The position numbers and the translations under genes were made by a program. The notes beneath the pieces were generated by a model that saw only the letters and a list, made by a program, of their open reading frames with translations, searched no databases and was not told the origin of the DNA. DNA of 35,628 nt from a virus: the IMG/VR virus record IMGVR_UViG_3300028815_000049, positions 1 to 35,628 of that record; one strand, written 5' to 3'. This document shows, piece by piece, positions 2,938 to 33,494 of the stretch. Numbering within the stretch: position 1 is the stretch's first letter; each line of letters opens with the position of its first letter.

Positions 2938-5276
2938 AGAGCGCAGTGTTTGTGCTGGGCAGCATGCACCGGGATGTCGGTCGGACTGGCGATGCCATTG
3001 CACCTAACGAGATCGACCTGCTTCAGCAGGTGGCGACAGAACTGCGGCTGGAAGTGGACCTGTTCCTGGCCGTGGAAGATCCGGCGCAGGCAGGCAAGGG
3101 GTCGTCCGTGCCCATGAATGTCATCCGGGAGGAACGGCCCCGGCTTATCGAGCAGATAGAGCGGGCCAACCCTGACATCGTGGTGTGCTTCGGGCCGACC
3201 GCAATCAAGTCTGTCTTCAACAAAGGCAACATGGTCCAGCGTGAGATGATGCGGCAGAAACATAATGCTCCTGATGTTGCGTGCCCAGTAGTGGTGACGC
3301 ACTCGATGGAGGCGTTGGCGATGTCGCCGGGCATCAAGAAGTGGATCCGCATGGACATACAGGCAGCAGTCGAAGGCCATGTGGAAACAGAATGGGGCGA
3401 CTATGTATACATTAGGAGTGATGACCCTAGCTGGAGCGTTGCTCCTGACTGGGTACATGGCTTACAACCTGGGGTTTGCATTGGTTTTGACCTGGAAACA
3501 TACCCCGGTCTGGATCCACATGCAGAAAATTCTAGGATTCGAATGGCTGTACTCTCCCATATGGTCGGACGTGCGACGGTCGTACTTACCGACCCGTACG
3601 GAGCCTTACCTGAGTGGGTTACAACCCTGGCGTCCGACAACAGTATTATCAAGGCAGGCTCGAACATCAAGTTTGATTACAGGTGGATGCACCGGTTTGG
3701 GTACGATCTGCGAAACTTACACGATACCTCAACCGCAGACCATGTGCTCGACGAGACCAACCCGTTCAAAGACCTCAAGTCACTTACCTTTAAGTACCTG
3801 CCCAGACTTGGAGACTACTCCAAAGATCAACGTGCCAGAGTCGCAGAACTTGGAGGATGGGAACACGTGCCCGACGACGAGATGTTGCAGTACGCAGGAG
3901 GAGACGGAGAAGCCAGCCTCGCCGCCGCCCACGCACAACGACGGATCTTGAGAGAACATAACCTAGAGCGTCCGTTCAGGCTGTCGATGGATTTGTATGA
4001 GGTGTTGGCTAAGATGGAGGTGCGCGGTGTTGGCATCGACATGGGTATTAATAAAGAATTGGACGCATCATTTAGTGACAATCTGTCGGAAGTGCGGGAC
4101 AAGATCACCGATGCGCTCGGGCCTATCAACCCGAACTCGCCGGTCCAACTGGCGGATGCGTTACTACGCACCGTTCCCGACATTGATCTTGCAAAGCGAG
4201 GGCTGCGCCACTATCTGGAAGAGCGACCTACTGAGGAGGCTAGCACAGCGCGTGATGTTTTGGAGAGGGAAGCCTCGAAGCATCCGGTCATCGAAGATAT
4301 TCTATTGCACCGACGTCTCCAGAAACTACACGGAACCTATATCAAAGGAATCAGGGACAAGTACATAACAGAGAGGAATGGGAAGTACTACATCCATCCG
4401 CAGTACCGGACGGACGTGGTACACACCAATAGGCTATCGTCGAACAGCCCGAACGGACAGAACATTCCGCGCAAGCCGGACCCGGATGATCCGCACCCGA
4501 TCCCGCAGGAACTGAACATCAAGCGACAGTTTGTGTCTCGCTTTGACGGCGGGCAGATCATGGAGGCGGATCTGTCGCAGGCGGAGCTACGTGTGGCAGC
4601 ATGGCTGTCCCGTGACCCGAATATGATTGGAATCATCGAGCACGGCGGTGACATCCACCGCAACACAGCCAGCCTGGTGTACGGCGTGCCACTGGATGAG
4701 GTCACGGATCTGCAACGCTATAATTGTAAGCGCGTGAACTTCCTGACGCTGTACGGCGGCGGGGCCAACACGCTGGGCAGGCAACTTGGCATCAGCAAGA
4801 ACCAGGCCAAGGAGATACTGGACCAGTACTTCCGCACGTTCCCAGGACTGCGCACTTACATTGATCGGATCAACGTGCGGGTGCAGCGGGATCTGTATGT
4901 GGAGTCGCCCTTCGGATACCGGCGCAGGTTCGAGCGTCCGCTGCGTTGGATGTCCTGGGATGGCTGGCGGGTGCAGCGCCAGGCGTGGAACCATATCGTG
5001 CAGAACACAGCGGCTGCGCTGTGTTACGTTGGTATGATAAATGTCCAGGGATACCTGGAAGACACATTAAAGAGCCATATCATTATGCAGGTACATGATT
5101 CAATTATCGTGGACGTGTATCCAGGAGAGCTAGATCATGTAGCCACAATCACTAAGGCGTACATGGAAGAACCCAGCTTGGATAGATATGGCGTAGATAA
5201 CTTCGACATCCCACTGGTCTGTGACGTAGAAGCCGGCCCATCGTGGGGAGAGATGAAACCTATTGCATTCGAGTGA
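2931..5276 (+). CDS. Family A DNA polymerase with UDG-like N-terminal domain and 3'-5' exonuclease
   Basis: This 781-aa protein is the replicative polymerase. Residues 1-150 resemble the uracil-DNA glycosylase fold (PDIVVCFGPTA near 81-91, VVVTHSMEAL near 121-130) but lack the GEAPG-type catalytic motif. A DEDDy exonuclease follows: D187/E189 (FDLE), N245 and D249 (GSNIKFD), Y321 and D325. Polymerase motifs are A (D547, ADLSQAELR), B (R596, K600, F604, Y608, G609, with the same spacing as Taq R659 to G672) and C (H722, D723, S724). Motif C has Ser where Pol I has Glu. GTG 2931 follows AGAGGA by six bases; the open frame extends to a GTG at 2862 but without a better binding site. The 5' end overlaps the nuclease gene by seven bases. 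Confidence 0.93.
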   Translation: MVKSAVFVLGSMHRDVGRTGDAIAPNEIDLLQQVATELRLEVDLFLAVEDPAQAGKGSSVPMNVIREERPRLIEQIERANPDIVVCFGPTAIKSVFNKGNMVQREMMRQKHNAPDVACPVVVTHSMEALAMSPGIKKWIRMDIQAAVEGHVETEWGDYVYIRSDDPSWSVAPDWVHGLQPGVCIGFDLETYPGLDPHAENSRIRMAVLSHMVGRATVVLTDPYGALPEWVTTLASDNSIIKAGSNIKFDYRWMHRFGYDLRNLHDTSTADHVLDETNPFKDLKSLTFKYLPRLGDYSKDQRARVAELGGWEHVPDDEMLQYAGGDGEASLAAAHAQRRILREHNLERPFRLSMDLYEVLAKMEVRGVGIDMGINKELDASFSDNLSEVRDKITDALGPINPNSPVQLADALLRTVPDIDLAKRGLRHYLEERPTEEASTARDVLEREASKHPVIEDILLHRRLQKLHGTYIKGIRDKYITERNGKYYIHPQYRTDVVHTNRLSSNSPNGQNIPRKPDPDDPHPIPQELNIKRQFVSRFDGGQIMEADLSQAELRVAAWLSRDPNMIGIIEHGGDIHRNTASLVYGVPLDEVTDLQRYNCKRVNFLTLYGGGANTLGRQLGISKNQAKEILDQYFRTFPGLRTYIDRINVRVQRDLYVESPFGYRRRFERPLRWMSWDGWRVQRQAWNHIVQNTAAALCYVGMINVQGYLEDTLKSHIIMQVHDSIIVDVYPGELDHVATITKAYMEEPSLDRYGVDNFDIPLVCDVEAGPSWGEMKPIAFE

Positions 5277-5325: not shown

Positions 5326-6042
5326 ATGTCTACATTCCGAGTCAACGTCAAGGCCAACATCGAAAGCACCGTGCGCAAGACTGTGTTTTTCGACATCAAG
5401 CCCGACAGCATGAACCGCATCCGTGTGGTCCCACCGGTCGACGAGACTGGTATGATCTTCACCAAGGCGGTCAACCATTTCAAGCTGAAGAACGAGGACG
5501 GCTTCGGCATTGCGCTAGCTTGCTTGGAGGAGCACGGCGACGAGGGTACCTGCTATCTGTGCAAGCTGATCAAGTTCCTGGAGAAGACGGGCGACAAGTC
5601 AGACGCCAAGGTAGCGAAGATGCTGGCGGCTAGTTCCCGCTGGTATCTCCAGGCATTCATCGGAGAGAAGGATGTGGACGGCAACCTGAACTACACTGGC
5701 CCCAAGCTGGTGGGGTTGAGCAAGACCACCGCCGAGAAGGTATCCAACTTGCTGACGACGCAGGACCAGATTGGCGATGTGTTCTTCTGCGACCCGGACA
5801 ACGGCCAGGATCTAGTGGTGCAGCGCATCGGCACTGGCTTCAAGACCAAGTACGAAGTGCAGTTGACAGGCAAGCAGGTTGCGCTGTCGGATATTGTGCC
5901 TGACTGGGAAGACAAGCTGATCACGGATGTGAACGAGGCATTGAACATGAAGGTTCGGACACCGGAGGAGCAGCGTGAGGCCGTGCTGCGGACGTTCGGA
6001 GACGAGTTGGATTGGGACACAATCGATGCGGCTGTGAGCTAG
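5326..6042 (+). CDS. gp32-like single-stranded DNA-binding protein with zinc motif
   Basis: This 238-aa protein would coat single-stranded DNA at the fork and contact polymerase, helicase and nucleases. H51, C66, C76 and C79 form an H-x14-C-x9-C-x2-C pattern that closely follows the zinc site of T4 gp32 (H-x12-C-x9-C-x2-C). The N-terminus is basic and the C-terminus acidic (GDELDWDTIDAA), as in gp32, where the tail binds partners. Length is shorter than T4 gp32 (about 300 residues). ATG 5326 is preceded by AGGAGG at a six-base spacing and by its own promoter-like site. The stop codon lies inside a long inverted repeat that begins the structured region downstream. Confidence 0.85.
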   Translation: MSTFRVNVKANIESTVRKTVFFDIKPDSMNRIRVVPPVDETGMIFTKAVNHFKLKNEDGFGIALACLEEHGDEGTCYLCKLIKFLEKTGDKSDAKVAKMLAASSRWYLQAFIGEKDVDGNLNYTGPKLVGLSKTTAEKVSNLLTTQDQIGDVFFCDPDNGQDLVVQRIGTGFKTKYEVQLTGKQVALSDIVPDWEDKLITDVNEALNMKVRTPEEQREAVLRTFGDELDWDTIDAAVS

Positions 6043-6172
6043 TCAACCGACCATGGGCGGCAGGGCCAAGGAGCACGACGGTGCATGTGGCTGGAGAGGT
6101 AGGACGTGACCAGGCTGCTGGGAGTGCTCGGCGGTTGCAGGTGTACCCTTAGACAGGCCCGCTAGCTCACAG
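6032..6172 (+). ncRNA. Candidate structured RNA closed by an 11-bp perfect inverted repeat
   Basis: The gap between the SSB and Cas4-like genes is bounded by CTGTGAGCTAG (6032-6042) and its exact reverse complement (6162-6172), extendable by a G.U pair. Nested inside are CAACCG/CGGTTG (6044-6049 with 6132-6137), GAGCAC/GTGCTC (6071-6076 with 6124-6129) and CTGG/CCAG (6091-6094 with 6110-6113). GGGCC (6063-6067) can pair with GGCCC (6156-6160), which would cross the second helix and make a pseudoknot. The SSB stop codon TAG is in the left arm, and the right arm ends four bases before the ribosome binding site of the next gene (6176-6182). I see no known RNA family. It may be a cis-regulatory element, a processing site or an independent RNA. 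Confidence 0.5.
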
Positions 6173-6186
6173 ACGAAAGGAATAAC

Positions 6187-7068
6187 ATGGATCCGATCCA
6201 GAAACTATACAACATCCGGAATGAGAACGGACTGGAGCAGGTGCGCAACCACAAGAAACCCCCATTGCGCTTTAGGGCCAGCGAGGTTGCGGATTGTGCA
6301 CGCAAGATCTGGTACCGTCTGTCCGGGTACCTGCCTGCCCCAAGAAATGCCAGGTCCGACGACTACGGCGTGGACGGGGACGCGCACCACGACGTGATCC
6401 GTCAGATGTTGGAGCACTATGACATCCCCATCCGGGGCATCGCGTTCGAAGAAGATGGCGAGCAAAAGGAGACTCGCTTCCTGACTAAAGAGTTCAACGT
6501 CGATGGGCTGAACATCACGGTGGCGTCCAGGTGTGACGGCGAGATATACCTGGAAGATCTGGATAAATGGGCGCTGCTGGAGATCAAGTCCGCCGGGTAC
6601 TGGAAGTACAAATATCTGAACGATGCTTTCGTGGACGGCGGGACGACCGGCGCAATTGCTTACATGAAAGAGAAGAGGCAGAATTACTACCTACAATCAC
6701 TCATAACAGCAACCATGCACGGCAACGACTTGGTGTACCTGGTGCTCAAGGATAGGTCCGACTGTAACATTGGACTGTGGAGTGGTGTCTTGCATCAGGG
6801 ATTGCTGTTCGAAGTGGGCGAGGACGATGTGCAGGCTATCCTGCGCAAGCTGGCCAGCATCCACCGCAAGGTCATGGACGGAGACCCGCCTGTGCCTGGG
6901 TACCTGCCCGGCAGCAATGACTGCAAGTGGTGCGAGTTTCGCTACGCATGTCACGACTACACCAAGCGCAAGAAGAAAGGGCAGGAACCTCACCTGCTGT
7001 ACCCTGATCCGGCCATTACGTTGCCGGACGCGCCGGAGGAAGGCGATGAAGACACTGACTCAGGATGA
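6187..7068 (+). CDS. Cas4-like PD-(D/E)XK exonuclease with iron-sulfur cysteines
   Basis: The 293-aa protein has the RecB/Cas4-type nuclease layout: first cysteine C37 (VADCARKIWYRL), H67 (GDAHHDVI), D117 (CDGEI), E132 and K134 (LEIKSAGY), Q165 with a following YYLQ helix, and three C-terminal cysteines C246, C249 and C255 (CKWCEFRYAC). Four cysteines in this arrangement usually hold a 4Fe-4S cluster. The family resects DNA ends. There are no CRISPR genes here, so a role in phage recombination or replication is more likely. ATG 6187 follows AAAGGAA (6176-6182). The C-terminal 20 residues are acidic and the gene overlaps the HAD gene. Confidence 0.88.
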   Translation: MDPIQKLYNIRNENGLEQVRNHKKPPLRFRASEVADCARKIWYRLSGYLPAPRNARSDDYGVDGDAHHDVIRQMLEHYDIPIRGIAFEEDGEQKETRFLTKEFNVDGLNITVASRCDGEIYLEDLDKWALLEIKSAGYWKYKYLNDAFVDGGTTGAIAYMKEKRQNYYLQSLITATMHGNDLVYLVLKDRSDCNIGLWSGVLHQGLLFEVGEDDVQAILRKLASIHRKVMDGDPPVPGYLPGSNDCKWCEFRYACHDYTKRKKKGQEPHLLYPDPAITLPDAPEEGDEDTDSG

Positions 7069-12587: not shown

Positions 12588-12792
12588 CGCTCCTCCCTCC
12601 CAGATGCCGCATGATCCACTTGATGTCCTCATGCACTTCGTCTATCTTGTCCTCAAGGCTGTCGACCCGATAGTCCACTTCGGACTTGGAGTAGACGTCC
12701 CGGTTCGAGAACGCCAACACGCCCTGCGCCAGTGCTGCCAGCACGATGATCCACGCCCAGCTAGGCATCAGTTGTACGCTTCGCCGCACCAT
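12556..12792 (-). CDS. Membrane protein with coiled coil, lysis-module accessory
   Basis: The 78-aa product has a transmembrane helix at about 11-29 (PSWAWIIVLAALAQGVLAF) and a coiled-coil segment at 38-62 (VDYRVDSLEDKIDEVHEDIKW), then a polar tail. ATG 12792 is used (TGATG with the upstream gene, GGAGG nearby); a GTG one codon earlier is also open. It resembles XhlA-like or spanin-like accessory proteins in composition, but the order of helix and coil is reversed compared with XhlA. Its place just before the amidase supports a lysis role. Confidence 0.55.
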   Translation of the reverse strand: MVRRSVQLMPSWAWIIVLAALAQGVLAFSNRDVYSKSEVDYRVDSLEDKIDEVHEDIKWIMRHLGGRSGDTGSNHNTP

Positions 12793-15700
12793 CACTCCTC
12801 CTCCGGTAGCTTGCCGGCTGGCAACAGGCCCTCTTCAGTCATGATCTCGATCACCTGGGGCAGTAGCTTCTTGTTGTCGTCCAACTCTCGCAGCCACCAC
12901 TCCAAGTTCTCGGCCTCTATTCGTCGCACAAACTCATTGGTGCTCACGTTGATGGGGAATCCCCTGTCGTTCAGATCCTGTGCAGCACGCTCGAAGATCT
13001 CCGGCTTGCCTTCGTGCACAGCCTCGATGAATGTGCGCATCAGCGATTCGGTTTCGTACATGTAGTCACGCTGGAGCTTGCTGATTCGCTTGCGTGCCCG
13101 CTCGGTGGCTCGGCCCTTCATGGACTTGACTTGCATGATCACGGACATCAGGTCGCCTCGCTGTCCCTTGCGACCCATGTCTAGTTCCAGCCGGCGAGTC
13201 AGTTCGCCGCGTGCGGTGGTCTGCGTGCCGAACTCCACCGCTTCTGCCTGCTTGGCTAGCTGCTCGACGCCGATCCGCAGTGGCACCAGATTCTCAGCCG
13301 ACGTCATCAGCCGTTCCGTCCGGTCGTCCACAGTCTTCAGGTCGCCCTCGCCAAACATCAGGTCGTTAGTCGCAGTCATCCAGCGCGTCAAATCCCACAT
13401 CAGTTCCACGCCAGGAGCCGTCACATCTTCCACGCCACGCGGCATGTAGCCAAACCCCAGATACTCGCTCAGGTCTACGCCCAAGTCCTCGGCGCTTGTG
13501 CGCTGGAGCCAGCCGGCTAGCATCAGGTACCGCAGGATGTAGCCAGGATTCTCCTTATAGAGCGCCCACACTTGCTCTGTTTGCTTGGGTGTGAAGGACA
13601 GGAACTGCGTGCCCAGCCGGCCAGCCGACGCCGATAGCCTGTCGAAGATCGGCGGGCGAGAGCCGGCCCCAAAGTAATGGTTGACTTCCTCCGTGGTGCG
13701 GATCGCGTCCATGATGGCACGATTCTTGTACGGGGAATTGTACAGGTCATCCAAGCTGGAGTACCCAAACTTAGTGGCGATGTCGTCCAGCGCAGCGTGC
13801 ATGGTCATGCCACGGATCAGCGCCTCCGTGTCCTGCACGGACGGCCTGCCGGGGAACCGCAGCTTGGTGATCTTCTCCGTCAGCCGCTGCACCGTGCCGT
13901 CGATCTCCAGGATCTGCGCCCAGTGCTTGCGCACGCCCGTCGCATTGATTAACGCCTGCCCCTCCGCAGTAGCTGACGAGAACAGACCGCGCAACGTACG
14001 CAGCGTGCCATACTTGGACCCCGTGGTGTTCAGTGCGGTCGCAATGGACATGATGGGGTACCGCAGATTCCCGGACAGCAGAGCGGTGTATAGCAGGCTA
14101 CCCAACGCACCTAGCTTGCGGCTCAGTCCTCCGGGGCTGTAGCTAGGCTGCACCAGTTCCTTGCCGAACGCCTTGACTGGCCCGCTGGATGCAGCGATGT
14201 CTCCCAGGAACCTGTCCACCAGGGATCCGACAAAGGATCGCTGTCCCTTGGCGTTGGCGACGAAGTTGTCCATGTAGTGTTTGTACCAGCGGTTGCTGCG
14301 ATGTAATGAAACGGCCTCGGCTCCCGCTTGCATCTGCTTGAGCGCAGGTTCGAGCCACAACTTGCGCCCCATTGACCGAGTATATACATCCAGCGCAGCA
14401 ACCGCATCGGGGCGGAATCCTGCCTTGCCCGTCCTGTCGAGGAGGTGGGCCACAAACACGCTGGCCTGTGGCGACATTCCGCGCATCTCAGGAGGAACCG
14501 CCCCTTTGGCAAAGTTTTTCTTGTCGAACATGTGGTGGATATAGCCCTCCAGGTACTTGTCCGTACCAGTCAGACCCTGCTTCTCGGCAGCGCGATCCAA
14601 CACTGTTCGTATGTTCTGCACCGCTTCCTTCTGTGTGTCCGTCAGTTCGTCCATCAGCCGCACGTGCTCGGGATCGTCAGCGGTGGTGTTCAATATAAGG
14701 AATAATCGCTCGGATAAGTCCTCATTTACCTTATAAGAAACCGGCTCACTCTCCACGACCAACGACCGAATCTTGGGGGTCTTGGATGACGCCAGTGCAC
14801 CGAACCTCTCTAGCTCTCTGTGGAACAGATTGTTGAACCGCCCGATCTCACCCTCCATACCGCGTGTAGCGTTACGCCAGATGCCCCAGGCACCGGGGTC
14901 CATGCCCTCGATGACACGTTGTGGGTCACGCAGGTTGAACAGGAATGCCTTGATTGCGCCAGGCATACGCATGCGCGTGCTGTTGGGATACAGCGCCCGG
15001 CCCATCATGTCGGCAAACGCAGCCTTGAATCCATCTAGGTTGCTGGATATCTTCGGCAGCGCATCCCAGTCGAACTTGATTTCCTGCTGAGTGTCCAGTT
15101 TCTTGAGCTTGGTGCGCCACTGCTTGAGCGTGCGGTTAACCCTGTGCATGTCGATCAGGCCAGCCTTGGTCACGCCCGGAGCCATCGAGCTACTAGCATT
15201 CATGGCTGTTGGGAAGCTTAGGCTGCTCATGGTCGCGTCGTCCACTGTCCCGCCATTCAGCAGGATGCGCATGGCATCGCCGGCATCCTCGCCAGCATCG
15301 GCTCCCACGATACGCTTGGCAGCTTCCCCCAATGGAAGTTCCGGATCTCCGTAGTCCATGATGGGCGGGTACTCTTCCTCCAGTGCACGCATGCGCTGGG
15401 CACGCAGTTCGGCCCCGATTTCCTCGGCGGTTCGGGTGCGAATCTGCTCGCCGCGCACAGTCAGCACGTCCGGGATCTCGTCTTCATCCATTTTGCGTAT
15501 CTTCTTACGCAATTTGTCTAACTCTTTGTACCGGATCTTGGCGTCCGGAGCCATCTTGCTGGGTAGACCCTCGGCATCCACCAGGTCGTCCACCCTGTCC
15601 TGCAATTCCTTCAACGCACGTTCACGGGACACACCCCTGGTCGGGGACAGCGGTACGATCTCCTCCGTGATGGGAGTGCGCTCGGTCATGCGTACCGCTT

Positions 15701-16895
15701 CAGGCTTGCGGCGTATAGCATGGCCGTACGTAATAGTCTCAAACGCGCCAGGATCCTTCATGTCGTCCAGGCGCTTGACATTCTTGGCGTGATTGTATGC
15801 AGCCTGCTTCAGCCGCTCGTTGGTGACAGTCGAAGGGTTCTGCCGCTGCGCCCGCAACATGGCTTCCAGGTGTTCCTTGGATGCACGCACGGCTTCCTGG
15901 GCTTTGTCTAGTGTCTGTATACGCTGTGCTACCCGCGCAGTCTTAGCCGCCTTGACAGACGTCGGCAGTAGTTTACGTCCAACGTTGACCGCCATCACGG
16001 GTGCGTCCGCCGCCATAAACAGCGGGTCCACAAAGATCTCACCCCCAGCGTACAGCGTGGCCAGAGCACCCATGGCTATCTTGCCCGGTACCCCTGCGTC
16101 AGACATCTGGCGGTACATCTCGTCCATGCGTAGCGCACCGACCGCCTCCTTGGTGCCGGTGGGATCCTGCGACAGCGGGGTGGCCCCGCCAGCCCAGGCG
16201 TCCACCACTTCGGAGAACTCGCGGATGTTGGACTGCGCATACATTTCGTTTACGCGCTTGACCTGCTCCATGTCTGGCATGTCTTCTACGCCGGCCACCT
16301 TGCCCCACAGGTACTGCGTGGTCTCCAGCAGTGGCGTGGTGATGTAGTATTCGCCGGTCTCTTCGTCCATCAGGAACGGATTGAACAGGTCGTCGATGAT
16401 GACGTCCATGCCGCCCTCGCCAGCCAGCCAGTCGAACAGCGCCTGCTGCCCTCGGATGAACGGGTCCGCTAGGCCCAAGCCGATAGCCACCACGTCGCCG
16501 GCCTTGTCCTTGCCCTTCTGTAGCAGCCGGGTGTAGTTGTCCGCTTGCTCTTCGCGAGTCTGCTGCTTGGCCTTACGCAGCAGCGACAGGGCCTCGGATG
16601 TAAACGGCACCACCGCTCCGGCAGACTTGAAGACCTTGGCGAACCAGTTGTCGTCCTGGACGTCCGGGATCTCCGCCTCCATCTGGTGGTCCTGGACCTG
16701 CTGTGCTAGCTGCAAGGCACCAGCCGTCTCGTTGTCCGGGTAGCCGACGACCTCGGGGGCTTGCCCGCTAGTTGCAAACCCGGAGCCACCGAATACAATC
16801 TTGTTTACTTCTTGCCTGCTGTAGCCCTCCTCCAACAGCATGTCGCGAATGCGCTCTGCTTCGGAGATTGGATCCGGACGGGTAATGTCGCCCAT
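12792..16895 (-). CDS. Very large virion protein (candidate internal/ejection protein), 1367 aa
   Basis: This is the largest gene of the window. The product is mostly helical, with long charged segments, and has moderately hydrophobic stretches near 930-960 and 1115-1130. No enzymatic motif such as a transglycosylase Glu site was recognised. It starts with a region resembling the beginnings of multi-helix podovirus internal proteins (EAERIRDMLLEEGYS). Position after two other helical proteins and before the lysis genes matches the internal core or ejection proteins of T7-like phages (gp14-gp16). It could instead be one of the large polyvalent phage proteins. ATG 16895 follows AAGGAG by eight bases. 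The stop overlaps the next ATG (TGATG). Confidence 0.6.
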   Translation of the reverse strand: MGDITRPDPISEAERIRDMLLEEGYSRQEVNKIVFGGSGFATSGQAPEVVGYPDNETAGALQLAQQVQDHQMEAEIPDVQDDNWFAKVFKSAGAVVPFTSEALSLLRKAKQQTREEQADNYTRLLQKGKDKAGDVVAIGLGLADPFIRGQQALFDWLAGEGGMDVIIDDLFNPFLMDEETGEYYITTPLLETTQYLWGKVAGVEDMPDMEQVKRVNEMYAQSNIREFSEVVDAWAGGATPLSQDPTGTKEAVGALRMDEMYRQMSDAGVPGKIAMGALATLYAGGEIFVDPLFMAADAPVMAVNVGRKLLPTSVKAAKTARVAQRIQTLDKAQEAVRASKEHLEAMLRAQRQNPSTVTNERLKQAAYNHAKNVKRLDDMKDPGAFETITYGHAIRRKPEAVRMTERTPITEEIVPLSPTRGVSRERALKELQDRVDDLVDAEGLPSKMAPDAKIRYKELDKLRKKIRKMDEDEIPDVLTVRGEQIRTRTAEEIGAELRAQRMRALEEEYPPIMDYGDPELPLGEAAKRIVGADAGEDAGDAMRILLNGGTVDDATMSSLSFPTAMNASSSMAPGVTKAGLIDMHRVNRTLKQWRTKLKKLDTQQEIKFDWDALPKISSNLDGFKAAFADMMGRALYPNSTRMRMPGAIKAFLFNLRDPQRVIEGMDPGAWGIWRNATRGMEGEIGRFNNLFHRELERFGALASSKTPKIRSLVVESEPVSYKVNEDLSERLFLILNTTADDPEHVRLMDELTDTQKEAVQNIRTVLDRAAEKQGLTGTDKYLEGYIHHMFDKKNFAKGAVPPEMRGMSPQASVFVAHLLDRTGKAGFRPDAVAALDVYTRSMGRKLWLEPALKQMQAGAEAVSLHRSNRWYKHYMDNFVANAKGQRSFVGSLVDRFLGDIAASSGPVKAFGKELVQPSYSPGGLSRKLGALGSLLYTALLSGNLRYPIMSIATALNTTGSKYGTLRTLRGLFSSATAEGQALINATGVRKHWAQILEIDGTVQRLTEKITKLRFPGRPSVQDTEALIRGMTMHAALDDIATKFGYSSLDDLYNSPYKNRAIMDAIRTTEEVNHYFGAGSRPPIFDRLSASAGRLGTQFLSFTPKQTEQVWALYKENPGYILRYLMLAGWLQRTSAEDLGVDLSEYLGFGYMPRGVEDVTAPGVELMWDLTRWMTATNDLMFGEGDLKTVDDRTERLMTSAENLVPLRIGVEQLAKQAEAVEFGTQTTARGELTRRLELDMGRKGQRGDLMSVIMQVKSMKGRATERARKRISKLQRDYMYETESLMRTFIEAVHEGKPEIFERAAQDLNDRGFPINVSTNEFVRRIEAENLEWWLRELDDNKKLLPQVIEIMTEEGLLPAGKLPEEE

Positions 16896-27832: not shown

Positions 27833-30063
27833 TATATGCCCTCTCTTTCAGGCCCGTCTGGCACGAAGTCTACTTCGTACCCCTGTAATACCAAGTCTTC
27901 CCCGTCATAGTCTTCAGCGGTCTTAATACGAAACTTAATATAGCGACCGCGTGCGTCCAGCGGAATCTCTATAGTACCAATCAATTGGTTGCTGTGTAAC
28001 ACGCCGTCTTTGTCTACAGTCAGACGGAAATCTTCGGATATAGTCTGCACATTAAATACGTTCTGTGTCACCGTTCGCGTCTGCCACCCGGTGATATCCG
28101 TCTGCCATTCTAGTTCCAAGTCCCAAGCCCCGCGTGGCTGCACAAACAGGCGCAGGTGCTTCCAGGTCTTCTTCTGGTGCTGGAGCCTAGCGTCTAGCGA
28201 GCGCCCGTTCAGATACGGACTTTCGAAGATTAGCTGCATCCGCTGGTCAAAGTTCATCTTCCAGTTGATATCGGTGACGCCCACGCGGCCATCGCTGGTG
28301 CCGTGCATGACCACCTGGATCACGGGGCTAGCCACCTCGACGCTAGACACAAACGTTGTGTCGGTAATCCATGGTCCATACCACTGGCCGTTAGCCACGT
28401 TGAACACGTACACCGCCGATACATCCGCTGCGCCCACCTGCTGGAACGCAAAGTACAGCAGCCCCAGCGTAGGGTTCCAGGCCACGGATGCTTTGTCCAT
28501 GGCGTCCTGGTCCACGCGGAACTGTTGGTTGGGAATCAGATCCCACATGTCCGCGATGGGTGCGCTTGGAGACTGTGCCTTGATGTCGCCGAATCGCTCG
28601 CTTGTCATCAGAGTGGTGAAGCCCTGCCTGCCGGCTAGCCACAGGTCGTTGCCCATGCGCTCGATGCAAGCTTGCCCGCCAGCACCCACGTCCTGCGTGA
28701 TGTTCTGCACCTGGAACGACTGTGGTGACGCACCTGTGATGCGCCAGGCACCCCGGTTGGTAGTCACAATGACACTGCCGTAGTACTCGCCGTACAGTCC
28801 GGTGATGGAGTCGCCGCGTTTGCCGGGAATGATCAGGTAACCTGCGTTGACGACCTCATCATAGGTTTCATCTGGATCAACATCTGGGGCAAACCAGACA
28901 TTGGGTTGACGGGACGCCGTGAAGTACACACGTAGAGGGTGGTTGCGGTCTCCCGCTGCAAACAGGCGTGTTCGGTGTTCCGTGCCAAAACGAACGTTCG
29001 GGGCGTCATCAAGAATCTGTACTGTGCCTTCTCCGTTCCAGGAATAGACTTGAGTGCTGAATCCATCGTCGCCGTCAAATATAATAATTTGGTCTTGAAA
29101 TTGCGCAAACTGAGCCTCGATTCCCGAGAGTTTTAGCAGTGGTGCCCAACTTTTTGTCAAGGCGTAGTCGACATACACGTAATTCACACTGCCGACCATC
29201 AGGTACCTGCGCACCGACGCTCTGCCCGTGATGACTTTGAAGTCCGTGCCGGAGGACATGCGGCTGGCCACGAACGCGGAACTGGTCTCGTCGTCGTCGA
29301 ACATGAAGTCGTACAGGTAGAAGGTCCATCGATCCGACAGAGTATTGTCCGTCTCTACCTCGATCTCGATATAACTGCTGGTCGAGAATGCCTGGTGTAG
29401 ATCGCAGCCTGTGGCCGTAGCATTCTCCACTTCGTCAATCAGCAACGTAGCCGTGGTCCCATCCCAACGGATCTCTATAGTGTGCGGCACACCGTCGCCT
29501 ACAGTTGCGTCCGTGGTCGACAGAGCAGCCCACGACGCACCATTCCAGTAATTTACCACAGTGTCGGTAAACTGGAAGGAGCAGCCCGTTTCTCCTGTGT
29601 CCGACCGCACCATCAGCGTCCAGGTGGCATCGGACGGCATGTTATTACATCGTTGTGTGAACCGTATAGACCACGTGTCGCCGCCGGAGTCGGTCAGCGT
29701 GCCGTCCGGGATCCACCCCAGATTGTATGTTTCCGTCCCGGCTGTAGTTGGAAAAACACTCAGCCTAAGCTGCCCGTTGTTAGTAACGGAGTCAAAATGA
29801 TCTTCGCTGCTATTGCTCTCCACCCAGTTTGTCAGATCGGTAAATGGTTCGTAATAATAGATATTGCCCAAACCTGCGGGCAGCTTGAGCACCTGGCCCC
29901 ACTGCTCCAGGCCAGGGCATTTGGAAATCAACCCGTCAAGACCCGCGTAGCAGTTCTGCGCACCCCATAGTTGGTTCTCGGCAATACTACCCTGCTGGCC
30001 GGCTGTAGTCAGCCCGCCGCGCAGAGGCATATTGTTAATCGTCAAGACTCTGCGCTTGCTCAT
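27832..30063 (-). CDS. Tail nozzle protein (tail tubular protein B / stabilisation protein-like), 743 aa
   Basis: The protein begins with NNMPLRGGLTT and AENQLWGAQNCYAGLDGLISKCPG, typical of short-tail nozzle proteins (T7 gp12, P22 gp10 type), which form the tail tip tube. The beta-propeller part includes TEHRTRLFAAGDRNHPLRVYF (361-381), ASRQPNVWF and VIVTTNRGAWRITG. Residues about 70-256 look like an inserted concanavalin/LamG-like beta sandwich (WSIRFTQR, TIEIRWDGTTATLLIDEVEN), which would sit on the outside. It is coupled to the adaptor gene by ATGA. The family call relies on these motifs and gene order. Confidence 0.75.
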   Translation of the reverse strand: MSKRRVLTINNMPLRGGLTTAGQQGSIAENQLWGAQNCYAGLDGLISKCPGLEQWGQVLKLPAGLGNIYYYEPFTDLTNWVESNSSEDHFDSVTNNGQLRLSVFPTTAGTETYNLGWIPDGTLTDSGGDTWSIRFTQRCNNMPSDATWTLMVRSDTGETGCSFQFTDTVVNYWNGASWAALSTTDATVGDGVPHTIEIRWDGTTATLLIDEVENATATGCDLHQAFSTSSYIEIEVETDNTLSDRWTFYLYDFMFDDDETSSAFVASRMSSGTDFKVITGRASVRRYLMVGSVNYVYVDYALTKSWAPLLKLSGIEAQFAQFQDQIIIFDGDDGFSTQVYSWNGEGTVQILDDAPNVRFGTEHRTRLFAAGDRNHPLRVYFTASRQPNVWFAPDVDPDETYDEVVNAGYLIIPGKRGDSITGLYGEYYGSVIVTTNRGAWRITGASPQSFQVQNITQDVGAGGQACIERMGNDLWLAGRQGFTTLMTSERFGDIKAQSPSAPIADMWDLIPNQQFRVDQDAMDKASVAWNPTLGLLYFAFQQVGAADVSAVYVFNVANGQWYGPWITDTTFVSSVEVASPVIQVVMHGTSDGRVGVTDINWKMNFDQRMQLIFESPYLNGRSLDARLQHQKKTWKHLRLFVQPRGAWDLELEWQTDITGWQTRTVTQNVFNVQTISEDFRLTVDKDGVLHSNQLIGTIEIPLDARGRYIKFRIKTAEDYDGEDLVLQGYEVDFVPDGPEREGI

Positions 30064-31076
30064 TTAAAGCCTACTCTATCTGAGCGGTCAAACTCATCGC
30101 CCCAGTCGATCTTCCTGGTGCCGTATTGCCACTTGCGGTATTGCATCTGTCTGTGCCGGCTGTCCGGTGTCAGTCGCGGAGCAGCTTCCGTCAACTCTGG
30201 CTGGCCGCGCTGGTTGTTGAACTCCCGCACAAAATCGCGCAGAACCACGTCCATCTTATCGGAATTTTCATAGTCCCTATTGGCCAGATGCAGCACGGCT
30301 TCGATGATCATGCTGTGATAGGTGTGCGGATACAGGATTCGGTCATTATCATTAACAACATCTGGATGAATCTTTTGGTACTCAAATGACAGCAACCGCT
30401 GGTTTTCAGGGTACGGATCAAAATGAATCAGGCGGTGCACTCCGTCCGGCGACAATCCCCACATGGTAAATACTTGTGGATCTGATATCAGAATAGAGTT
30501 ACCTCTGGCACGTCGACGCCTGGACATTTCTGACGGGGATACGTAGTCAATGCCATATGGAGCAAAGAAATTCTTCCACGAACCCAATGGACGCCCGAAG
30601 TCTTCCGGCAATGTGTACTGATCCTGCACAATCTTGTACAAAAGTTCCTCGCCGCTCAGCCCGCCGGTAGTTGTGTCGCCCAACCACGGACGGCTCAATT
30701 CCACCTGTATATTAGAATTGATTTGCGTTATTCGATATACGGTGTTCTCAGCGCCAATCTGCACTGCCCGGTTCTTGTAGCTTTGGTCCCAGTTTAGATC
30801 TCCTGTACGATTGGTCACCGATTGCTGCCATGTTTCGTCGCCGTTGGCCAACATAAAGAAGTCGTTGTCTTCCTCGCCGGGAATCAACAGCAAATCACCT
30901 TCTTCGCGCAACAGCGGCCAGTCCGCTCCGGCGTCCAGGGACTTCAAGACGCGATTGGTAAGCTTCAGAATCTTCCGCTGTTCTGGCTCTAGTTCGCCAG
31001 CACCTTCCAGCGTGGAGATCTGCTTCCAGCCCAACCGGTCCACAATCTCATTCATTAAGTCGAGTCCAAGTATCAT
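30060..31076 (-). CDS. Head-tail adaptor (tail tubular protein A-like), 338 aa
   Basis: The start MILGLDLMNEIVDRLGWKQ, the helical segment ILKLTNRVLKSLDAGADWPLLREEG, the beta part YTLPEDFGRP and the late helices HSMIIEAVLHLANRDYENSDKMD follow the layout of T7 gp11 / P22 gp4-like adaptors, which link the portal to the nozzle. ATG 31076 is chosen over a start at 31115 because GAGGA lies seven bases upstream and it clears the preceding stop (31078). Its pairing with a nozzle gene downstream is the usual short-tail order. Confidence 0.78.
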   Translation of the reverse strand: MILGLDLMNEIVDRLGWKQISTLEGAGELEPEQRKILKLTNRVLKSLDAGADWPLLREEGDLLLIPGEEDNDFFMLANGDETWQQSVTNRTGDLNWDQSYKNRAVQIGAENTVYRITQINSNIQVELSRPWLGDTTTGGLSGEELLYKIVQDQYTLPEDFGRPLGSWKNFFAPYGIDYVSPSEMSRRRRARGNSILISDPQVFTMWGLSPDGVHRLIHFDPYPENQRLLSFEYQKIHPDVVNDNDRILYPHTYHSMIIEAVLHLANRDYENSDKMDVVLRDFVREFNNQRGQPELTEAAPRLTPDSRHRQMQYRKWQYGTRKIDWGDEFDRSDRVGFK

Positions 31077-31077
31077 C

Positions 31078-31536
31078 TCAAGTCCTCGGGCTAGCCATGA
31101 TATTGAGCGAAGCATCGCCAGTGGTAGTGGTGACGCTGGAAACTAGCAGGGTAATGTACATGCCGTATGGTAATTGCAGGCCGTCTAAGCCTACCGCGCT
31201 GGTAAACGGCAGAACACGAAAATGGCTGACTGGAGATACTGAGCTAGTGGCCTGTGTAATCACAGTAGCCGACGTCGCGCTGCCAACTTCCAGAAGATCC
31301 AGTACAGTTGCTTTGGCCGCCGTCTGACTCTCGTTGCCATAAGAATAGGCTTTAATAGACAGACCGGACACGCTAGCCACGCCCGTTACCACCACGTCAA
31401 CAACTTTCTCCCCAGGAGGCACGTTAACTGTGTAAAGGCCGTCTGCCGTGGCGGCAGTGCAACTTATGGTTGTTTGGTACCTGGTGACCTCGCCGCCAGG
31501 AAAAAAGCTCCTACCTTGTACATACGGGTATGCCAT
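31078..31536 (-). CDS. Small beta-rich virion protein, 152 aa
   Basis: The product is rich in Ser, Thr, Val and Ala with predicted strands (GLYTVNVPPGEKVVDVVVTGVASV, GMYITLLVSSVTTTTGDASLNIMA) and no helices or signal peptide. It resembles the 138-aa protein encoded at 34993-35409 in composition and size, so both may be capsid or tail surface proteins. AGGAG lies upstream of ATG 31536. No family is recognised. Confidence 0.6.
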   Translation of the reverse strand: MAYPYVQGRSFFPGGEVTRYQTTISCTAATADGLYTVNVPPGEKVVDVVVTGVASVSGLSIKAYSYGNESQTAAKATVLDLLEVGSATSATVITQATSSVSPVSHFRVLPFTSAVGLDGLQLPYGMYITLLVSSVTTTTGDASLNIMASPRT

Positions 31537-31544
31537 GTCTTCTC

Positions 31545-33494
31545 CTAATCCACGATTGCGACTAGCACCGTGGCGCTATAAGTAGTACTGTCATTGCGCA
31601 GCGTCAACGTCTGATAGTTTCCACCGGCCAGAATAAGGAAGTTGCAACCAGGCCAGAAGTATGTGCTATTGCCGACAGCCACACGGACTGGTGTCGTCGA
31701 TTGCACGGCCAGGTGCTCGGCGGTCTGCACGCCGCCCATGTTGATGGTTTGGGTGGTATTGGTTGACAGGACCAGGCGTCTTATGGTTGATTCGCTCCAC
31801 CTCTCGGGTTCCACCTCATCGCGCCAGTCGATGTGAAGGACACGATTGCGCTTGGTTTTGACCCGTGCAAGTGAGTTCAAGCGCAGCGTCGGCTCGTAAA
31901 AAGGCAGCACGTCCAGGTACACGGGGTTGGTAACTGCATCTCCTGGATCGGGGCCGGGATCAATGGTTTCATAAGTAGAGCAGTTAATCGTCACCGTAGT
32001 GATGTTGGACCACGTGATGCCGTCAGTAGCCTGATACGTAAATGTGACTGAGCCGGAACAATAAGGATCCGACACATAAGTAAAGCCACCATCAGTTCTA
32101 AGACTCAGCGTGCCGGTGGTTACATCCGACACCAAGCTGGCAGAAAGCGTATCTAAGTTGGGATCTGTATCGTTGGCCAGCACGCCGCTGCCCGCTGTCA
32201 CGTTCAAGGTTTCACCGGCAGTAACACTGTATACGTCCGGGTTGGCTACGGGCGGAGAATTAAATGGGTCCAGTGCACCTACCTGGTCGCCAGTGCTATC
32301 GGCTGTCGTGCCGACTCTGGCCCGCAGGTCAGGGACGGTCAGCGTATAGTGGCTCGACACGACCCAAGAGTAGTTAGAGGTAACGTCACCAAAGATCTCG
32401 CCCGTGGTAACGGACTGCGTTAGTACGTCGGTAGACATCACGTCGTCGACGCCAGTGCCAGTGGCAATACTTGACCACGGCTTGCCATAAATACCGCCAC
32501 CGGTCCAGCTACCAGTAGTAGTAAAGTCAGTACCAAGTGCCCAGTAGTTATACCCAATGGTAGAATTTGTAGTATTGACTGTAGCCGTCGATGCTGCGTT
32601 GCCTTGTACCAGCCCGTTGGGTATGATGCCGGCACCTGTTACTGATTCCTTGGAAATGTAGACCAGATTGTTATAACAACGTAATGCCGCATTGCCCGTG
32701 GTCGGGCCGTAACGCACAGGGATTGCTGCCGGAGTAGGCGATGCAGCACCAGTTCCCTGGTAACTAACGTACATTGTGTTTTGCTTGACACTTCGTTCGT
32801 GCACTGTGTCCGCTGCGGTCGTGAACACTACCTTGGTGCTGGCGGACGTGTCGTCTGGAGTATTCCAGAAGACGCACTCTTCAACAATTAGTGTAGCAGC
32901 AGACGATGATTGGTCGAACGGCACGCGGCAGTTCTGCAAGTAGCATCTGTATAGATCGCCCGTGTACGCCGGAAATGTAGACTCCGGTGCCAGCACATTA
33001 AGGTGCTGTGAGTTGGAACCGTGTCCTGTTTTAGTTGCGCCATAGAATTCACAGTACTGAAATCTTACAGGTCCGGAAGTTCCATCGCGCATTCGAGCAA
33101 CTTGCACGTTGGATACGGAGTCGGTGGTGGGCGTGCCGTCGAAGATGATTCCTTCAATAATCCAGTACTGGGCACCAGCACGCATGTACGCAATAGGATG
33201 ATTGAAAACACCGGCTGCTGACTGGATGATCGGCATGTCCGTGCCGATTGTCTGGCTGCCGGTGGTGTTGACTCCTCGAATTATCGCGCCTGGATCACCC
33301 CAAGCAGTTCCGGTGGGACCATTTCTTGCTAATAGTGTAGTTGGCCATGTATACGTTCCATTGTTTACAACATTTAATATGTCGCCTTTACTGGCCAGCA
33401 GATTGACCCCTGCGTACACTGTCTTCTTGGCGTTCGCAAAGTTTGTTCCGCTCGCCGTATCGGTCCCACCGGTACTGATCCAGTAAGTTGCCAT
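31545..33494 (-). CDS. Spike-like protein: beta-helix plus bacterial cadherin-like domain, 649 aa
   Basis: The N-terminus (YWISTGGTDTASGTNFANAKKTVYAGV) is typical of right-handed beta-helix proteins. Later coils include YWIIEGIIFDG, VRFQYCEFYGA, DLYRCYLQNCRV and LIVEECVFWN. At about 415-510 there is a cadherin/Ig-like repeat (PPVANPDVYSVTAGETLNV, GVLANDTDP, FTYQATDG) of the kind used in bacterial adhesins. The last 130 residues form a separate beta domain (TQTINMGGVQTAEHLAV and so on). It likely binds the host surface or decorates the capsid. It overlaps the GT-MT gene by TAATG. Confidence 0.75.
   Translation of the reverse strand: MATYWISTGGTDTASGTNFANAKKTVYAGVNLLASKGDILNVVNNGTYTWPTTLLARNGPTGTAWGDPGAIIRGVNTTGSQTIGTDMPIIQSAAGVFNHPIAYMRAGAQYWIIEGIIFDGTPTTDSVSNVQVARMRDGTSGPVRFQYCEFYGATKTGHGSNSQHLNVLAPESTFPAYTGDLYRCYLQNCRVPFDQSSSAATLIVEECVFWNTPDDTSASTKVVFTTAADTVHERSVKQNTMYVSYQGTGAASPTPAAIPVRYGPTTGNAALRCYNNLVYISKESVTGAGIIPNGLVQGNAASTATVNTTNSTIGYNYWALGTDFTTTGSWTGGGIYGKPWSSIATGTGVDDVMSTDVLTQSVTTGEIFGDVTSNYSWVVSSHYTLTVPDLRARVGTTADSTGDQVGALDPFNSPPVANPDVYSVTAGETLNVTAGSGVLANDTDPNLDTLSASLVSDVTTGTLSLRTDGGFTYVSDPYCSGSVTFTYQATDGITWSNITTVTINCSTYETIDPGPDPGDAVTNPVYLDVLPFYEPTLRLNSLARVKTKRNRVLHIDWRDEVEPERWSESTIRRLVLSTNTTQTINMGGVQTAEHLAVQSTTPVRVAVGNSTYFWPGCNFLILAGGNYQTLTLRNDSTTYSATVLVAIVD

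Follow-up and report, generated by a model that had tools for sequence, protein, structure and literature searches.

A candidate structured RNA domain directly downstream of the single-strand DNA-binding protein gene in a small group of phages

Introduction

The mRNA of bacteriophage T4 gene 32 is bound by its own product, the single-strand DNA-binding protein (SSB) gp32, at a 5' pseudoknot, and the gene is thereby autoregulated (PMC3014915). RNase E cuts the same mRNA near the stop codon, at a site that ribosomes may shield (PMC3014915). In the present study we analyzed a stretch of 35,628 nt, the IMG/VR record IMGVR_UViG_3300028815_000049, which is referred to here as the window and its virus as the window phage. 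Like the T4 pseudoknot, the RNA element found in the window is a structured part of a phage SSB mRNA, and post-transcriptional control is plausible. However, the T4 pseudoknot is located on the 5' side, 67 nt ahead of the start of its gene, whereas our element is located 3' of ssb, is larger and multi-branched, and has no conserved pseudoknot.

An RNA of similar size is the phi29-type pRNA of phages, which is closed by a helix, has a three-way junction and makes contacts between molecules through its loops. The three-way junction of pRNA has been described previously (PMC5340915). While the phi29 pRNA is a separate transcript that serves the phi29-type packaging motor, our element lies in a replication operon of a phage with a family A polymerase and DnaB, and it has no match in Rfam. 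The STAXI motif resembles our element in that it often occurs near genes for single-strand DNA-binding proteins, but it is a tandemly repeated pseudoknot (PMC2864571), whereas the element is one multi-branched unit, present as a single copy and lacking any STAXI-type tandem pseudoknot. Structured domains in the 3'-UTR of a bacterial or phage gene are also represented by the L17 downstream element and the phage retroregulators (PMC2864571), for which we found no sequence or structural relation to the element; such 3'-UTR RNA domains have been called unusual in bacteria (PMC2864571). Lastly, OLE, GOLLD and ROOL are structured RNAs with loops that switch between palindromes, as in our element, and GOLLD and ROOL are phage-borne (PMC12286853). 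GOLLD is often over 800 nt long, and both GOLLD and ROOL are found near tRNA islands (PMC12286853). These RNAs are several times larger than our element and have other secondary structures, and the kissing and multimer formation of the element are putative.

Results and Discussion

The gap downstream of ssb and its relatives

The gap under study is preceded by the gene for a phage SSB (positions 5326 to 6042, + strand; PHROG 1192, E=2.7e-20) and followed by the gene for a Cas4-like nuclease (6187 to 7068, + strand; PHROG 1706/1990, E about 1e-10); both proteins were recognized by PHROG matches and are without a Pfam match at E≤0.001. From the SSB stop at 6042 to the Cas4-like start at 6187 the gap measures 144 nt. 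A preliminary description of this DNA had drawn attention to it as a sizeable non-coding gap, and when obvious overlapping reading frames are allowed for, no other clearly non-coding gap on the replication side of the genome is as large. The sole open reading frame (ORF) within it (6012 to 6152, TTG start) overlaps the SSB gene and has no counterpart in relatives.

Relatives were sought in IMG/VR contigs with SSB, Cas4, polymerase and DnaB queries. The gene order Pol-SSB-gap-Cas4-like-(kinase)-DnaB is kept in five near phages, namely the window phage, L003, L019, L022 (where the kinase was not detected) and L025 (a 5.7-kb fragment), and the SSBs of these near relatives are 51–57% identical to the window SSB. 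The same order was observed in the distant relatives L026 (equal to L027) and L028. The ssb-Cas4 gap is 193 nt long in L003, 112 nt in L019, about 485 nt in L022, about 386 nt in L025, about 270 nt in L026/L027 and about 470 nt in L028. The element directly follows ssb in four phages (window, L003, L022 and L025), while most of the gap in L026/L027 and L028 is taken up by coding sequence in place of the element. When translations of the gap were compared by eye, the frames proved to be broken and unlike one another in L003, L019, L022 and L025, so that no conserved protein-coding frame, named beforehand as evidence that would speak against a structured RNA, was found.

The surplus gap length in L022 and L025 is accounted for by a small ORF downstream of the element (L022, about 2955–3262; L025, about 1157–1371). 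These ORFs are unrelated, which suggests that this spot takes up small genes. In L022 a second inverted repeat (GGGACGGG...CCCGUCCC, with about 55–60 nt between the arms) was observed at 2873–2955, downstream of the element and ahead of the small membrane-like ORF.

Searches outside this group were less productive. Among 50,697 phage records there were no DNA relatives of the ssb-Cas4 region and only distant SSB matches (about 30% identical). The L022 element had no sequence-level relatives, and the L025 element gave a weak 45-nt match to a cyanophage (E=0.1). A DnaB relative is located on a 20.7-kb contig (L023/L032, LJTR01000014.1) that was binned in a Phycisphaerae MAG and does not include the ssb region. 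This binning makes a host among the Phycisphaerae possible, as a weak hint; the SSB alignment gave no match in 392 genomes of the phylum to which this MAG belongs. Elsewhere in the window, positions 31545–33494 (− strand) encode a virion-side protein of 649 aa that carries an Ig/cadherin-like domain of the bacterial type (Pfam Big_9, Cadherin_4) and adjoins an SU10-type adaptor protein at 30060–31115. A 1367-aa protein at 12792–16895 (− strand) is without a PHROG match, the rest of the phage genome being recognizable.

A multi-branched fold predicted in four phages

The overall plan in the four phages, on the coding strand, is P1[P2; P5[P3 - linker - P4]], and the P1-P2-P5 junction was obtained in all four when each sequence was folded alone. 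All positions given below are on the + strand of the window. For one sampled pair per helix, the predicted pairing probabilities in the window are 1.00 (P1), 0.88 (P2), 0.90 (P5) and 0.92 (P3).

P1, as defined by four-phage pairing, consists of the arms 6032–6042 and 6162–6172, extended by U6043-G6161, and its core GCUAG/CUAGC is common to the window, L003, L022 and L025. These arms form an exact 11-bp inverted repeat inside a 14-nt arm pair (93%), and the UAG stop of the SSB gene (6040–6042) lies within the 5' arm. Both the perfect closing stem and the inclusion of the stop codon in its left arm had been noted in the preliminary description and are borne out here. The P2 hairpin (6047–6060) has a CCG/CGG stem of just 3 bp plus a bulge and the loop ACCAUGGG, and a hairpin is found at the equivalent place, a few nt after the P1 5' arm, in L003, L022 and L025. 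P5 is formed by GGGCC (6063–6067) and GGCCC (6156–6160), the latter flush with the P1 3' arm. The pairing between these two arms had been proposed previously as a pseudoknot; the pairing itself stands, but the arms form a stem nested inside the outer stem. With nested arms and a position 3' of ssb, the element does not correspond to an operator of the T4 gene 32 type, which is a pseudoknot in the 5' leader.

P5 is connected to P3 by the linker AAGG (6068–6071), aligned with GAGG in L003, L022 and L025 (consensus RAGG). P3 (6073–6084) is the hairpin GCAC-GACG-GUGC, and the window, L003 and L022 share its GACG tetraloop; L025 carries a larger arm there, and its inner domain differs from that of the other three. 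It is followed by the purine-rich linker AUGUGGCUGGAGAG (6085–6098), with a similar RUGUG...GGWGRA sequence in L003, L022 and L025. The variable arm P4 (6098–6147) is a window-only prediction with a GGUA/UACC base and an 8-bp hairpin (6115–6122/6127–6134; probability 0.98), and its size and sequence differ among the phages. The motif RACA directly precedes the P5 3' arm (GACA at 6152–6155; GACA/AACA/GACA/AACA in the four phages).

The inner part of the fold thus differs from the earlier proposal, which did not include P2 and P3. The three inner helices proposed instead are complementary, but their predicted probabilities (one sampled pair each) are low and the homologues do not keep them: 6044–6049/6132–6137 (0.002; at most 3/6 pairs in homologues), 6071–6076/6124–6129 (0.009; at most 1/6) and 6091–6094/6110–6113 (0.09; at most 1/4).

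Evidence for conserved pairing

The folding energy of the window sequence is modest, with minimum free energy (MFE) z-scores of −1.4 and, for the exact element, −1.7, and the case for a structured RNA therefore rests on the comparison with relatives. Homologous SSB-Cas4 junctions were compared, following the proposal in the preliminary description, and covarying pairs were found in them. In a plain, structure-free MAFFT alignment of three phages (A13), 8 of the 23 pairs change on both sides, a number that was reached by none of 500 shuffles, and slid partners gave only 0–3 such pairs. MAFFT did not align the 3' half correctly when given all five sequences or when L025 was included, and for this reason the structure-free count was limited to three sequences. 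When L025 was added by means of a model, 10 of 22 pairs change on both sides (1/500 shuffles), although an alignment made in this way leans to the structure.

In a strand-swap test on the four phages, based on a helix alignment made by hand, native strands paired in 75 of 76 cells versus 157 of 216 after swapping between phages. For the individual helices these numbers were 12/12 versus 24/36 (P2), 16/16 versus 31/48 (P5) and 12/12 versus 9/24 (P3), and all four loop-proximal pairs of P3 change on both sides. In P1, 35 of 36 cells are paired over 9 pairs, two of which change both sides (A-U/G-C, G-C/U-A).

Covariance models were made from three phages, leaving out L025 (R1), and from L003 plus L022 (R2); the E-values of both are rough. 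R1 found L025 at the orthologous site as its best non-training match (18.8 bits, E=0.054, 201 kb), and R2 found L025 at E=0.0021. R2 missed the window site with default filters and recovered it weakly without them (12.4 bits, E=0.12, rank 5, 35 kb). With E=0.59 in 4.5 Mb and a location within a coding ORF, a match of 20.1 bits in the Phycisphaerae genome L037 was dismissed as chance; no second copy of the element was found in the model searches. A first descriptor with a strict P2 missed the window because of its short, bulged P2 stem. With a descriptor that includes RACA, the ssb junction came out on top in each of the four sequences scanned, which, as the descriptor was designed after sight of the sequences, is support and not proof; since most P2 stems were counted at 3 bp, the scores are slightly underestimated. 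A looser descriptor without RACA was unspecific, the site not being at the top in L003 or L022. Trimmed, N-containing sequences served only for viewing the core. Taken over the four sequences on which the conservation evidence rests, these comparisons make it very probable that the gap RNA is a genuine conserved structured RNA, as first proposed, of which the shape is kept and the letters are not.

None of the known RNA families accounts for the element. The 4227 families of Rfam 15 gave no match to the window at the gathering score and none to the gap at E≤10, there was no match in the window to the OLE, GOLLD, ROOL, phage pRNA or STAXI models, and only sub-threshold chance matches were obtained with L003, L019, L022 and L025. 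ARAGORN found no tRNA or tmRNA genes in the window, L019, L003 or L005. The sequence CUGACGA in L003 was considered as part of a hammerhead ribozyme and rejected, because its GACG forms a tetraloop on top of a perfect stem of 6 bp.

The 112-nt gap of L019 has no shared fold (z-score +0.2), and model R1 did not find the site. A reading by eye of L019 as a divergent member is not supported by its own fold, its z-score and the model search. L019 and L025 are sister phages whose DnaB proteins group together and share 75% identity; the absence of the fold from L019 implies that the element is dispensable, replaceable or losable. The post-ssb gap of L019 (L019:9108–9219) does contain CCGC-GCAA-GCGG and GGGCAA/UUGCCC; these may be what is left of the fold or something that has taken its place.

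Proposed role and alternatives

The gene that follows the element is Cas4-like in the window and L003, and an unrelated small ORF in L022 and L025. The Shine-Dalgarno sequence of the next gene (AAAGGA, 6176–6181, + strand, in the window) is outside the fold in all four phages. As the following gene varies while the position behind ssb is constant, the element belongs to ssb and not to Cas4, which weakens the earlier suggestion that it ties SSB translation to the next gene. Between 5200 and 7200 no terminator-like site (GC hairpin followed by a T run) was found on the + strand, every such site in this interval being a − strand one that falls outside the element, and a scan for sigma-70-type promoters gave no candidate near it. 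Without a promoter or + strand terminator nearby, the element is probably part of the operon mRNA.

The reading we tentatively prefer, at somewhat below even chances, is that of a cis-acting intercistronic or 3'-UTR domain that controls the ssb mRNA. The element would be an RNA domain of roughly 140 nt in the replication-operon mRNA, directly after ssb, co-transcribed with ssb and acting in cis, most likely by setting the stability or processing of the ssb mRNA segment. By analogy with T4 gp32, SSB itself might be the ligand. A less certain part of this reading is that two such RNAs would kiss through the palindromic P2 loop described below. Where the P1 5' arm holds the stop codon, it would be melted by ribosomes that finish translating ssb, as was suggested at the outset. 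Such opening is possible in three of the four phages (window, L022 and L025), in which the UAG is inside the P1 arm, but in L003 P1 begins about 39 nt downstream of the SSB stop, which indicates that a coupling to termination does not hold throughout.

The strongest competing explanation is a trans-acting phage RNA that is cut from the operon transcript and forms a homodimer or larger assembly via a kissing loop in P2. The P2 loop carries a 6-nt palindrome in all four phages: CCAUGG in the window (6051–6056; putatively self-kissing), UGAUCA in L003 and CCUAGG in both L022 and L025. About 4% of the hairpin loops of 7–9 nt in these genomes hold a 6-nt palindrome, and permuting the letters of each P2 loop yields 8–11% palindromes. 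Three independent palindromes are therefore unlikely to have arisen by chance (about 6e-5 to 8e-4, for a feature that was noticed after the fact), and they suggest kissing-loop dimers. Switching of a loop from palindrome to palindrome has been taken as evidence for symmetric kissing loops in OLE and GOLLD (PMC12286853). The P2 loop covaries in this way, which supports a likeness in working to OLE, GOLLD and ROOL and not membership of these families. A trans-acting RNA would also fit with a self-contained fold closed by P1, with its independence of the downstream gene, and with its separation from the ssb stop in L003. Against it speak the absence of promoter-like (sigma-70 scan) and + strand terminator-like sites nearby, the absence of a second copy elsewhere, and the fact that the element is always beside ssb, for which cis linkage is the simpler reading. 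We therefore regard a trans-acting RNA as possible but doubtful. Equally doubtful is a new small class of phage RNA on the ssb transcript, which would form a kissing-loop dimer and sense free SSB or act in trans while the phage replicates, and which would be a compact equivalent of the large multimeric RNAs of phages.

A third explanation is an RNase III- or RNase E-type processing site or a barrier to mRNA decay, with the fold presenting or protecting the cut site. Lambda-type retroregulation is a precedent for such processing. The position just past the stop codon, the long and GC-rich P1, and the RNase E cut close to the stop codon of T4 gene 32 (PMC3014915) point in the same direction. However, a plain stem-loop would suffice for this purpose, whereas the GACG, RACA and linker motifs and the multi-branched plan ask for more. 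In addition, P1, with its 8–12 bp, is shorter than expected of a classic RNase III site. We consider this explanation unlikely.

Improbable is a DNA element, such as the replication origin proposed earlier or a single-strand initiation site, that would fold as single-stranded DNA. Its position among replication genes and beside ssb and the inverted GCTAG repeats at its flanks would suit such an element, but P1 in each of the four phages includes G-U pairs, as do other helices, and with RNA parameters the + strand, which is the coding strand, gives the more stable fold, its advantage over the − strand being about 4–19 kcal/mol (−61.0/−50.8, −54.6/−41.7, −41.1/−35.6 and −79.0/−59.9 kcal/mol for the + strand and its complement in the four phages). 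The use of G-U pairs and the better folding of the + strand favor RNA with the sense of the coding strand. Finally, a chance structure without function in a GC-rich gap, which could be read from the merely modest MFE z-scores in the window and the loss of the fold in L019, is likewise improbable in view of the covariation, the shared motifs and the recovery of the orthologous site by the model.

Conclusions

The element is a new candidate RNA family. Its general kind, structured phage mRNA domains, is known, while its 3' position is unusual and a dimer loop is possible. Rfam contains no conserved, covarying RNA fold located immediately 3' of an SSB gene in phages. The four natural variants, together with one natural loss in L019, provide ready-made comparisons. 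If the palindromic loop works, the element would be a small, tractable self-associating phage RNA, the known ones (OLE, GOLLD and ROOL) having so far been giants. If the ssb mRNA is controlled by it, these phages would have a second, differently placed answer to the problem that T4 handles via the gene 32 pseudoknot.
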